A stretch of DNA of 46,125 nt, from the NCBI GenBank assembly GCA_947456825.1, contig CANGTM010000007.1, positions 1-46,125 on the forward strand, in the 5' to 3' direction. Each line of letters starts with the position of its first letter. Positions within the stretch are counted from its first letter, which is position 1. Shown here piece by piece: positions 38,364 to 42,720 of this stretch. Under the pieces are notes generated by a model that worked only from the letters and a program-made list of their open reading frames with translations, did no database searches and had not been told where the DNA came from. This DNA is from Chitinophagaceae bacterium (lineage in GTDB: Bacteria > Bacteroidota > Bacteroidia > Chitinophagales > Chitinophagaceae). The translations under genes were made by a program, and so were the position numbers.

Positions 38364-40811
38364 TCAAAATCCCTTTTTGTCACCGGCCGTCGGAGCCGGG
38401 GATTTTACGAACTTTTCCAGCCAGTCGAACTGCTCGGCCAGTACATGCAGCAGATTCTCCTTTCCGGTGTATCCATGCGATTCGTAGGGCAGACTTACAT
38501 AACGAGTTGTTCCGCCATGCCCTTTGATGGCATTGAACATGCGCTCGCTTTGTATGGGAAAGGTGCCTGTATTGTTGTCCATTTCTCCGTGAATGAGCAG
38601 CAGAGGTGTTTTGATCTGGTTCGCATAGCTAAATGGACTCATTCGGTTGTAGAGTTCGGAAGCCTCCCAGTAACTGCGGTCCTCATTTTGAAATCCAAAG
38701 GGTGTCAGCGTTCGGTTATAAGCACCACTGCGCGCGATACCGGCCTTAAAGAGCTTGGTGTGTGCCAGCAGATTGGCGGTCATAAAAGCACCGTAGCTAT
38801 GTCCTCCCACGGCCACCCGGTTCGGATCGCCCACGCCCATCGAGTCGAGTGCATTAATGGCGGCGCTGGCATTGAGCGTAAGCTGCTCAATGAAATTATC
38901 ATTCGGCTTTGCCTCGGCAGAAGTAGCCACAATGGGCATTTCTGCATTGTTGAGAACGGCATATCCCTGGGTAACATAAAAAACGGGAGATCCGCCGCTC
39001 AGATAGGTAAAGCGGTGTTCGCTGCCTCTGATCTGTGCGGCATCGGCCGCCGAATTGTATTCGGCAGGGTAAGCCCAGATTAACACGGGTAATTTTCCAT
39101 CTCTGCCCGCATCATATCCTTTGGGCAAATAAAGTTCTCCTGTTAGAGTAATGCCATCGGCTCGCTTGTAAACGATCTTTTGCTTGCGAACGCCTGCCAT
39201 GGCCGGGTAGGGGTCTTTGAATTGGGTGAGGGCTTTCCGGCTGGTAGTGGCGCCCAGTTTGATACGATAATAGTTGGGTACCTCTTTTTCGCTTTCGCGT
39301 TGCGTGATCAATTCTCCATTGTCTGCATCGATCACTTTGACGATGGTCTCAAAACTTCCTGGTTGGCAGCGCCATAGCGTATCGGCTTTCTTGGTGTGTA
39401 CATCAAACGAGAGCAAGAAGGGGAGATCGCCCTTGGGAGAGCTACCTGTATTGTTTATCATCAACACTTTATTGCCCTTATCGATGGTCCATAGTACTTG
39501 CTTGCCATATTCGTTTTGGCGGGTCAGCGGATTTCCGGGGTTGGCATAGGCGTTGGTGCTGTTGCGTGTAAGAATGCGCTCCAGGTCTTCGGTTATTGGA
39601 TTATAGCGATTGAGCCCGGTCAGCTGCTTGGAACGTAATCCCTCTGTGACCAATGCGAGCCCTTCATGTCCCCAGATTGTGCTGTTGTAGCGCATCTTAG
39701 TGGCAAATAGTTTTCTCTTGTTCTCGGTAAAGGGGGCAGACAGCGCATAGATGGCATCGCGATACGTTGCTTCGTTCTTAACGAGTCCCCCATCGAGGGG
39801 TTCGCACCAGGTGATTGTAGCCGGTTCATCATCTCGCCAGTCAAAACTGCGCGGTACGTTCTGCACGTTATCGTTTCCGCCGGGTGCTGTCTCTGAAGAA
39901 GGTAATTGTGCTAACTCTTTTATGAATTTTCCATTAGCATCGGTGATGACTACACGAGACGCAAAACCAGTGGCAGGTACCGTATACGAGAAAGGAGGTA
40001 CGATGATCTCTAGCAAGAAATATTTTTTATCGGGCGACACGCTAAGGCTTTTGTATAGTGCCGGATTTCCCAGCCGGGTTTCGGTGCCACCGCTATTGCT
40101 CACTAGTTGTGCCTGGGCGTAAAAAGCAAACAGCGCTTCGTCATGCGGCGATTTGATAAGGTCCTGAAAGGTGGGGCGAGGACTGGCCTTACCACTATTT
40201 TCTTGAATGGCCGGCCCTGCGGGAACATCCGGTTTTGTGGGTGCTGCCGAGATAGGTTGGGCACAGGTAAAATAAAGCAGTGTGCTATTATCTTTCCACT
40301 GGTAGCGGTTCATTACGGCATTTACTGGTGTACGGTTGATGCGAACAGCTTTTTTCTGCGCCAAGGTAATCACATAGAGATCGATATGGTTTTGACCCAT
40401 TTGAAGAAAAGATATTTTTTGTTGATCGGGGCTCCAACTTACCGCGGTAGCCTTGAGCGGCTCTGGCAGCCCGCCAATGGCATATTCTTTTTCCGTAACC
40501 GCATTACGAAGTTTGAGGGTATGGATCAGTGACTGCCGGCTGGGGCCTGCGTTGCGGGGATTGATGCGAAGTCCGGCGATCTTCAGTTCCGGGGCCGCCA
40601 GATCTTCCATGGCCGCATAGCTGTTCGTCTCACTAAGTAGCATCCACTCGCCTTTATTATCGACGCTCACAGTTGCAGGTCGCTGCGCCAGTAGCAAGTC
40701 GGCTACTTCTTTGGGAGGAAGTTTGTAACCGCTACCCTGTTGGGCAACCGCAGCCGCAACGGAGATAAATAACAGAAGCAAGGTTGAAAAAAAGCGAATA
40801 CACTTTTGCAT
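38364..40811 (-). CDS. S9 family prolyl oligopeptidase-like peptidase
   Basis: Signal peptide; VAVGGHSYGAFMTANLLAHT, LLIHGEMDNNTGTFPIQSERMF, LPYESHGYTGKEN. Confidence 0.92.
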   Translation of the reverse strand: MQKCIRFFSTLLLLFISVAAAVAQQGSGYKLPPKEVADLLLAQRPATVSVDNKGEWMLLSETNSYAAMEDLAAPELKIAGLRINPRNAGPSRQSLIHTLKLRNAVTEKEYAIGGLPEPLKATAVSWSPDQQKISFLQMGQNHIDLYVITLAQKKAVRINRTPVNAVMNRYQWKDNSTLLYFTCAQPISAAPTKPDVPAGPAIQENSGKASPRPTFQDLIKSPHDEALFAFYAQAQLVSNSGGTETRLGNPALYKSLSVSPDKKYFLLEIIVPPFSYTVPATGFASRVVITDANGKFIKELAQLPSSETAPGGNDNVQNVPRSFDWRDDEPATITWCEPLDGGLVKNEATYRDAIYALSAPFTENKRKLFATKMRYNSTIWGHEGLALVTEGLRSKQLTGLNRYNPITEDLERILTRNSTNAYANPGNPLTRQNEYGKQVLWTIDKGNKVLMINNTGSSPKGDLPFLLSFDVHTKKADTLWRCQPGSFETIVKVIDADNGELITQRESEKEVPNYYRIKLGATTSRKALTQFKDPYPAMAGVRKQKIVYKRADGITLTGELYLPKGYDAGRDGKLPVLIWAYPAEYNSAADAAQIRGSEHRFTYLSGGSPVFYVTQGYAVLNNAEMPIVATSAEAKPNDNFIEQLTLNASAAINALDSMGVGDPNRVAVGGHSYGAFMTANLLAHTKLFKAGIARSGAYNRTLTPFGFQNEDRSYWEASELYNRMSPFSYANQIKTPLLLIHGEMDNNTGTFPIQSERMFNAIKGHGGTTRYVSLPYESHGYTGKENLLHVLAEQFDWLEKFVKSPAPTAGDKKGF

Positions 40812-40943
40812 GGCTCAATAATTTTGGAGCCAGAAAGATAAGGCAAAACGGCCGCTGTGCCCGGTCTCTACGCTCCAAAAAAGCCACCGGTTTCTTGTTG
40901 ATTAATAGTCGATATTTGCCAAGTCTTTTGTAAAGTATTTATT

Positions 40944-41570
40944 ATGAATATCAAGGTTTGCGGAATCACCACTTTTAAGCAATTGCAACAACTAGATGGC
41001 CTCGAGATCGATATGGCCGGATTGGTCTTTATCCCCGATTCTCCGTGGTATGCAGGTACTGCATTATCCGGCTCGGCGGTCAGTAAGGCCGATTTTGATG
41101 TAAAAAAGGTTGGCATCATGCGTAATCCTTCGTTGAGCGAGGCCCTCGATATCATTGATGAGTACAAGCTCGACGTCGTTCAGTTGGTGGGAGAGGAGAG
41201 TGTCTCGCTTTGCGATGACCTAAGTACAGAGGTAGAGGTCATCAAAACTTTTTACCTGTCCGACGATACCTCATCCGTCGATGAGTTAATAAAGGATTAT
41301 GATGCGGTTTGTGATTATTATTTATTTAGCGGGGCATTGGCTACTCCCACCGATCTGTACGGCAGCGGCGTATCCCTTTCATTGCTGAAACAGGCGCGTA
41401 TCGAAAAGCCTTTTTTTATATCGGGCGGTATCGACAGTTCGCATGCCTCGATGATAAGGGGAATAGACCACCCCGACTTTTTCGGCATAGATCTGACCAC
41501 GGGTTTCGAGGTTGCTCCCGGCGATAAGGACCTCAAGTCGTTGCTGCAGTTCAGGCAACTGCTACGCTGA
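40944..41570 (+). CDS. TrpF (phosphoribosylanthranilate isomerase)-like protein with altered active site
   Basis: MNIKVCGIT, DMAGLVFIPDSPWY, VQLVGEE, SGGIDSSHASM, FFGIDLTTGFEVAPGDKD. Confidence 0.8.
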   Translation: MNIKVCGITTFKQLQQLDGLEIDMAGLVFIPDSPWYAGTALSGSAVSKADFDVKKVGIMRNPSLSEALDIIDEYKLDVVQLVGEESVSLCDDLSTEVEVIKTFYLSDDTSSVDELIKDYDAVCDYYLFSGALATPTDLYGSGVSLSLLKQARIEKPFFISGGIDSSHASMIRGIDHPDFFGIDLTTGFEVAPGDKDLKSLLQFRQLLR

Positions 41571-41575
41571 TTGCT

Positions 41576-41583
41576 TATCTTTG
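41576..41583 (+). promoter_or_regulatory. -7 element TATCTTTG upstream of the TlpA-like gene
   Basis: Match to TAnnTTTG, 31 nt before ATG 41614. Confidence 0.4.
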
Positions 41584-41613
41584 AGAACAATAGATCATAA
41601 AACTTTTTTTGAC

Positions 41614-42720
41614 ATGTTACTTCGTATCGCACTTTTAGCGGGTTGTCTGTGGATGGGCTCTTTGATAGCCGCTGCCCAAAACTCGGCCGAGTTCAGCTTG
41701 ACCGGACAAGTAGAAGGCTTCGCCGATAGCAGCGAGGTAAAGTTGGTTCGAAGCGGAGAGAATACGCCACTGGCACAAGCGCGCATCGTCAATAATCAGT
41801 TTGTACTAAAAGGAGCGTTGGCGGAGCCTTCGTTGGTTTTTTTATTCATCGGCGACCAACCTCAGCCCGCTGAACTTTTCATTGAGCCCAAGGTCATGTC
41901 CATACGTGGTAGCAAGGGAAACCCCGGTGCCATGCAACTGGAGGGTAGCAGTTCTCATCTCATTTTTCAGCGCTTTTTAGTTGGATTCGTGCCCTATGTA
42001 CAACTGCGTAACCAGCAAGCCACGGCGCTCAATGCATCACCTGGCGATAAAAACCGCGATAGTTTGATGGCGGCTTATTCCGCTACGAATATGGCCATGC
42101 AGCAATTGGTAGAGCAGTTGGCCCAACAAGAGCCTGCGTCTCCTGTCACCAGCTTTGTATTGGCGGCCACCTACGGATTTTTTAATGACATGGTCTGGCT
42201 CGAAAAATGTTTTGAGTCGCTGCAGCCGCCTGCCCGCCAAAGTGCGTCTGGCAAGCAACTCGATGCCATGATACAGGACGGAAAGATCGGAGCCGTTGGT
42301 TCAAAGGCCATTGATTTTACCCAGGCAGACACCAGTGGTAAGATGATATCGCTCTCCTCTTTCAAGGGCAAATATGTACTGGTTGATTTTTGGGCCAGCT
42401 GGTGTGGTCCTTGTCGCCAGGAGAATCCTAATGTGGTCGATAATTTCAACAAGTTCAAAGCAAAGAACTTCACGGTACTGGGCGTATCACTTGATCGCGA
42501 AGATCAACGTGCCAAATGGTTAGAGGCCATCAAGAAAGACAGGCTTACCTGGACGCATGTGAGCGATCTGAAATTCTGGAATAACGAAGCTGCTCGTTTG
42601 TATCGAGTCAATGGTATTCCCTATAATTTTCTGGTTGATCCCAGCGGCACCATCATTGCCAAGAACCTGCGTGGTCCTGCCCTCGAAGCCAAACTGTGCG
42701 AGGTGCTGGGTTGTAAATAA
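41614..42720 (+). CDS. TlpA-like thioredoxin-domain protein with N-terminal DUF4369-like domain
   Basis: Signal peptide; FSLTGQVEGFADSSEVKLV; VLVDFWASWCGPCRQENPNVV. Confidence 0.92.
   Translation: MLLRIALLAGCLWMGSLIAAAQNSAEFSLTGQVEGFADSSEVKLVRSGENTPLAQARIVNNQFVLKGALAEPSLVFLFIGDQPQPAELFIEPKVMSIRGSKGNPGAMQLEGSSSHLIFQRFLVGFVPYVQLRNQQATALNASPGDKNRDSLMAAYSATNMAMQQLVEQLAQQEPASPVTSFVLAATYGFFNDMVWLEKCFESLQPPARQSASGKQLDAMIQDGKIGAVGSKAIDFTQADTSGKMISLSSFKGKYVLVDFWASWCGPCRQENPNVVDNFNKFKAKNFTVLGVSLDREDQRAKWLEAIKKDRLTWTHVSDLKFWNNEAARLYRVNGIPYNFLVDPSGTIIAKNLRGPALEAKLCEVLGCK

Follow-up and report, generated by a model that had tools for sequence, protein, structure and literature searches.

Small-genome freshwater bacteria have long kept trpF, and kept its product highly conserved, despite deleting the rest of the tryptophan pathway; the protein most likely serves a different job. 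We analyzed one such gene in a window of 46,125 nt, a whole stretch of DNA from a Chitinophagaceae bacterium. Its product has an enzyme fold, has lost essential catalytic residues and is conserved by selection, as a pseudoenzyme is. With slightly better than even confidence, we interpret it as a TrpF pseudoenzyme retained for a role that is non-catalytic and carried by the protein surface. TrpF is a textbook example of a TIM-barrel enzyme with one function; strong selection to keep it where substrate, product and catalytic residues are all missing would indicate a second role, hidden so far.

A TrpF-fold protein between S9 peptidase and TlpA genes

The window's orphan trpF has an S9 peptidase gene upstream and a TlpA/AhpC-TSA-like gene downstream, with no trp genes nearby, just as the original prediction had described. 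The features of the locus are as follows.

40944..41570, + strand: orphan trpF, encoding a TrpF/phosphoribosylanthranilate isomerase (PRAI)-fold protein of 208 aa (ORF, profile, PDB alignment, orphan alignment and dN/dS)
38364..40811, - strand: S9 prolyl-oligopeptidase-family gene, divergent, at the upstream boundary of the former trp operon (by synteny, the same gene flanking trpE in trp+ relatives)
41614..42720, + strand: TlpA/AhpC-TSA-like thiol-disulfide protein with DUF4369, probably co-transcribed (the same gene lies directly after trpA in trp+ relatives)
40905..40920, + strand: CGATATTTGCC, candidate promoter core of the orphan trpF (sequence comparison only)
41577..41584, + strand: TATCTTTG, perhaps an independent start signal for tlpA, six bases past the trpF stop (from the same kind of comparison)

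Profile, sequence and structure searches all identify the protein as a TrpF relative. The uninterrupted 208-residue frame matches Pfam PF00697 (PRAI) at E=7.8e-20 (71.8 bits against a cut-off of 22.7), the only Pfam family to exceed its own cut-off, and the sole significant matches in a PDB sequence search were PRAI enzymes (E=3e-13). An AF2 model built on an alignment of 32 homologues (mean pLDDT 93.8, pTM 0.91) was compared with PRAI as had been proposed. All 12 of its best PDB matches in Foldseek were PRAI or TrpC-TrpF, the best being 1dl3, 1nsj, 1lbm and 1v5x. The protein shares the (beta-alpha)8 fold with Thermotoga PRAI (PF00697; 1nsj, 1lbm). Like TrpF/PRAI, it carries the catalytic-Cys strand KVCGIT and the motifs QL-G-E, SGG and DxxxGFE..PG.KD, and it occupies the position orthologous to trpF of the ancestral trp operon. 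Unlike them, it has replaced Arg36, Asp126, His83 and the GGTG loop (Thermotoga numbering) and resides in a genome without the trp pathway. It scores far under every NCBIfam equivalog cut-off (94 versus 215 bits), and its operonic TrpF relatives likewise fall below (161–169 bits). Phage records gave only distant, ordinary PRAI matches at 27% identity.

The rest of the tryptophan pathway is absent

The host genome (G000, with the window as contig C7) is 1.82 Mb and is listed as 100% complete. Genome-wide trp loss was tested for trpC, trpD, trpA, trpG and trpE/pabB. Searches of G000 found no TrpC, TrpD or TrpG/PabA, no full-length TrpA and no chorismate-binding TrpE/PabB, and therefore phosphoribosylanthranilate is neither made nor used. 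HisA and HisF are also absent, with PF00977 giving only short partial matches, and a role as HisA replacement was rejected on that ground. A canonical trpF elsewhere in the genome had been suggested as a check; none exists, the window's copy being the only PRAI homologue. The gene is thus not a specialised paralog beside a canonical trpF, as the original prediction had offered, but the in-place orthologue of operonic trpF.

Catalytic residues are lost across the orphan clade

In Thermotoga (Tm) PRAI, Cys7 is the general base, Asp126 is the general acid and Arg36 binds the anthranilate carboxylate. The window's Cys6 aligns with Cys7, and Cys is present in 10 of 10 orphans. Trp35 aligns with Arg36; this residue is Trp in all ten orphans and Arg in 21 of 21 canonical TrpFs aligned, a clade-wide pattern that noise does not explain. 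The counterpart of the general-acid Asp126 is Ser129, a position held by Ser or Thr in every orphan (Thr in the sister subclade) and by Asp in all canonical TrpFs. Val82 replaces Tm His83, where orphans have Val, Asn or Ile. The GGTG loop is lost (DLYG instead), and the DINS motif reads DLTT, varying among orphans as T/H/A/N plus T/Q/L/R. In four orphans the Gly of the SGG phosphate loop is Glu or Asp.

The original prediction was partly confirmed by these alignments. The ORF, the PRAI scaffold with its catalytic Cys, the Arg-to-Trp change and the His-to-Val change in VQLHG were all read correctly, as was the loss of the general-acid Asp. Its counterpart had been placed at Phe128, one residue off. 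Phe128 aligns with Tm Leu125, and every functional TrpF of the genus likewise has Phe there (YLFDT versus YLFSG). W35 is fixed in the orphan clade.

The protein would no longer isomerise phosphoribosylanthranilate: the cell has no means of producing this substrate, and the protein itself lacks the Arg that binds the carboxylate, the general-acid Asp, the His and the GGTG loop. Retention of the fold and catalytic Cys could instead mean that it is still a PRAI, or a HisA-type isomerase, acting on an imported or alternative substrate. We regard this as very improbable in a genome without TrpD, TrpC, TrpA, TrpE or HisA/HisF, and with both Arg and the general-acid Asp replaced in 10/10 orphans.

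An in-place remnant of the trp operon

Gene order ties the orphan to the trp operon of its relatives. Large-genome congeners (2.6–5.5 Mb) carry the operon as trpE-G-D-C-(F1)-F-B-A, usually with the same TlpA/DUF4369 gene behind it and the same divergent S9 peptidase upstream (L124, L125, L127, L129, L130, L050, L051). In small genomes the order is divergent S9 peptidase, trpF, tlpA, then DUF5683, parB and parA. The window has lost trpE-G-D-C and B-A from this arrangement and retains trpF-TlpA in place. The conserved flanks therefore identify the gene as an in-place remnant of operonic trpF rather than a paralog. The other trp operon genes would have been deleted in the ancestor of the small-genome clade. 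Operonic trpF genes of large-genome relatives (for example G028, G033 and G019) are 53–59% identical to the orphan and have the same helix-1 and opposite-face residues; unlike the orphan, they retain all catalytic residues and a full trp operon around them.

Orphan trpF genes form a single lineage. Ten intact ORFs, with no stop codons, occur in small-genome relatives at 64–92% identity to the window's copy, and they group as one clade beside the operonic genes in the TrpF tree. The genomes that bear them form one clade in the ParB tree (support 100). The orphan-bearing contigs and related ones come from Bacteroidota/Chitinophagaceae MAGs, some of them lake-derived, and from Ferruginibacter.

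Related loci show further variation. Two tandem, strongly diverged trpF genes occur in several trp operons of the genus (L050:5490-6755, L051:5883-7157, L124, L125); in some, the upstream copy starts with an altered KVCGN and carries His83>Ser (QLSG). In G032, trpE appears broken into three frames (L128:6355-7393), and no separate intact trpG or trpD was seen ahead of trpC; this may be an operon in early decay or a result of assembly errors. S9_B peptidase and TlpA appear fused into one frame of 1090–1120 aa in three genomes (L120:4214-7492, L121:3530-6901, L122:3710-6982).

Other lineages lost the pathway with different outcomes

A second small-genome lineage (G007, G014, G024, G061, G065) lacks trpF and keeps trpG. 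Its trpG might have betrayed a hidden trp branch, but PabA is the better identification, since in the genomes tested pabB and trpG are either both present or both missing; tested members of this lineage do encode pabB. The tested genomes of the window's clade (clade A) lack both trpG and pabB, and trpG is kept with pabB in G007, G014 and G024 (L118, L120, L122). Loss of both genes suggests p-aminobenzoate (folate) auxotrophy in the window's clade.

The 3.9-Mb genome G001 represents an independent loss of the pathway in which an intact trpF was retained. Nested inside trp+ relatives in the ParB tree, it lacks trpC, trpA and trpD and keeps trpG-trpF-tlpA. Like the orphan clade it has lost the pathway and holds an intact trpF next to TlpA. 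Unlike the orphans, it also keeps trpG (as PabA), with pabB elsewhere in the genome, and its TrpF retains Arg35 and Asp129. The changes in G001 are, in Thermotoga numbering, Cys7>Ser, His83>Tyr, Val61>His, GGTG>GGIE, Ser157>Cys and Ser181>His.

The orphan protein is under strong purifying selection

Pairwise NG86 dN/dS values reveal strong purifying selection on the orphan TrpF. Weight was placed only on pairs with unsaturated dS (about 0.5–0.9), namely the two closest orphan pairs, dS being saturated in the others. G000-G013 gave 0.045 (dN 0.038, dS 0.86) and G011-G003 gave 0.055 (dN 0.028, dS 0.51). For these two pairs, the flanking S9, TlpA, DUF5683 and ParB genes span a range that includes both values, as do operonic trpF pairs. 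With values of about 0.05, a pseudogene was rejected. With no TrpD or TrpC, catalytic residues lost clade-wide and selection this strong, the non-PRAI function raised by the original prediction is strongly supported, and of its two suggestions only the paralog falls away.

Slow decay, with trpF a leftover awaiting removal, could draw on the loss of the rest of the operon, the sister lineage without trpF and the degraded active site. It is improbable, and already disfavored, given ten intact ORFs of 64–92% identity and closest-pair dN/dS equal to that of flanking genes.

The gene might also be kept only as DNA or RNA, for instance to carry a tlpA promoter or translational coupling. tlpA begins about 11–44 bases past trpF among orphan loci, and TATCTTTG lies just past the stop in 4 of 10; in the remaining six the tlpA ATG falls within about a dozen bases of the stop. 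Selection on the amino-acid sequence already speaks against this highly unlikely alternative, and a promoter would not need a 208-aa frame. Upstream, CGATATTTGCC resembles the Bacteroidota -7 box TAnnTTTG, and an equivalent CGAT[A/C]TTT block lies in a similar place before all ten orphan trpF genes. We claim no functional link between trpF and the tlpA product, because their adjacency is inherited from the ancestral operon; in trp+ genomes tlpA follows trpA.

Constraint moved to the opposite face of the barrel

Constraint in the orphans has moved from the catalytic to the opposite face. Faces were assigned from the secondary structure of the AF2 model, the opposite face being the alpha-beta loop side. 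Invariant positions make up 37% of the catalytic face and 73% of the opposite face in orphans, compared with 49% and 56% in operonic TrpFs. At positions conserved in operonic TrpFs, 12 of the 18 that changed in orphans lie on the catalytic face, versus 42 of all 113 (p=0.006), and 9/10 G001 changes at conserved positions lie on that face (p=5e-4), p values that are descriptive only because the faces were defined after the changes had been seen. G020, a divergent trpF still in a trp operon, has the reverse pattern, with 4/38 changes on the catalytic face. Five positions (58, 60, 82, 139, 186) changed in both the orphan clade and G001, a marginal overlap (p=0.049).

Charged and aromatic residues abound in the invariant block on the opposite face: A49-D50-F51-D52, K55, Y74, S94-T95, E98-V99, Y119-Y126, R152-F158, H176 and D178-F180. 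On the simplest account, a folded TrpF is retained for a non-catalytic, probably protein-binding or scaffold role. That role would be carried by helix 1 and the charged and aromatic opposite face (D50-F51-D52-K55, Y74, S94-E98, Y119-Y126, R152-P156, H176-F180), presumably through a partner protein.

Other observations pull against a scaffold. The sister small-genome lineage (G007, G014, G024, G061, G065) lost trpF altogether, and the role is therefore dispensable somewhere. The opposite face may be conserved just for fold stability or homodimerisation, and the predicted site of action of the adjacent TlpA-like protein lies outside the cytoplasm. Orphans are also still invariant at Cys6 and the barrel residues K4, Q80, E85, K101 and D183, and have fixed Trp35, Gly130, Tyr139 and Leu184; the invariant residues, with W35 and Y139, would also fit a new pocket.

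Such a pocket is the most serious competing explanation, though a rather unlikely one. The protein would have been neofunctionalised, its PRA pocket rebuilt (Trp35, Tyr139, Ser/Thr129, kept Cys6, Asp183) for another small molecule, bound or converted. Strong selection and Cys6 in 10/10 orphans agree with this, as do 11 catalytic-face residues invariant in orphans and differing or unfixed in operonic TrpFs (including W35, Y139, G130 and L184). However, the orphan protein is less conserved on its catalytic face than on the opposite one, and a common phosphorylated ligand is unlikely because four orphans have Glu/Asp in place of the phosphate-loop Gly and the DINS motif is variable. G001 has R35 and D129 but not the Cys, which means that the two types of orphan have no single new pocket in common.

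Under the favored non-catalytic reading, the second role would probably be older than the loss of the pathway, since the opposite face is already unusually conserved in the genus's working TrpFs and survives two independent losses; this would explain why trpF outlived the pathway. We tentatively extend this, as a possibility short of even confidence, to the genus as a whole: its TrpF may have had a second, non-enzymatic opposite-face job, and that job rather than tryptophan synthesis may have preserved trpF through at least two independent pathway losses (clade A and G001). If true, TrpF is a moonlighting protein turned dedicated pseudoenzyme.

Relation to known systems and other PRAI-like families

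The nearest published case that we found is PriA in Actinomycetaceae (SubHisA2, SubTrpF), which is retained as trp and/or his genes are lost through genome reduction and, with selection relaxed, comes to accept fewer substrates (PMC5404923). Both cases involve a phosphoribosyl isomerase kept with changes at active-site residues. PriA still performs one of its two catalytic functions and selection on it is relaxed, whereas the window's protein is a monofunctional TrpF with both pathways gone and selection strong. We found no report of a TrpF pseudoenzyme in the open literature, of which our coverage was incomplete. The orphan lineage offers a natural experiment on non-catalytic uses of TIM barrels. 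Automatic annotation as "phosphoribosylanthranilate isomerase" would wrongly give these auxotrophs a trp step.

Two further families are PRAI-like. One, in the same order, lacks the catalytic Cys and usual motifs (KxSxxNxLSDARYFxA...; L045:887-1531(-), L046:5799-6386(-), L047:3981-4628(-); L176-L185). Its profile (A3) gives strong matches, with E-values under about 1e-20, in dozens of the 199 genomes, frequently next to a separate canonical-type match, and the family looks like another widespread PRAI-fold pseudoenzyme. The other (KICCISS.EEAK..ADALGLVGKMPSGPGPI) occurs in large genus genomes (L032:5974-6636, L033:5989-6642, L042:5986-6651). It keeps the Cys, Asp and GGTG, has no SPRY Arg and lies in conserved synteny close to a gene that resembles pyruvate dehydrogenase E1 beta.
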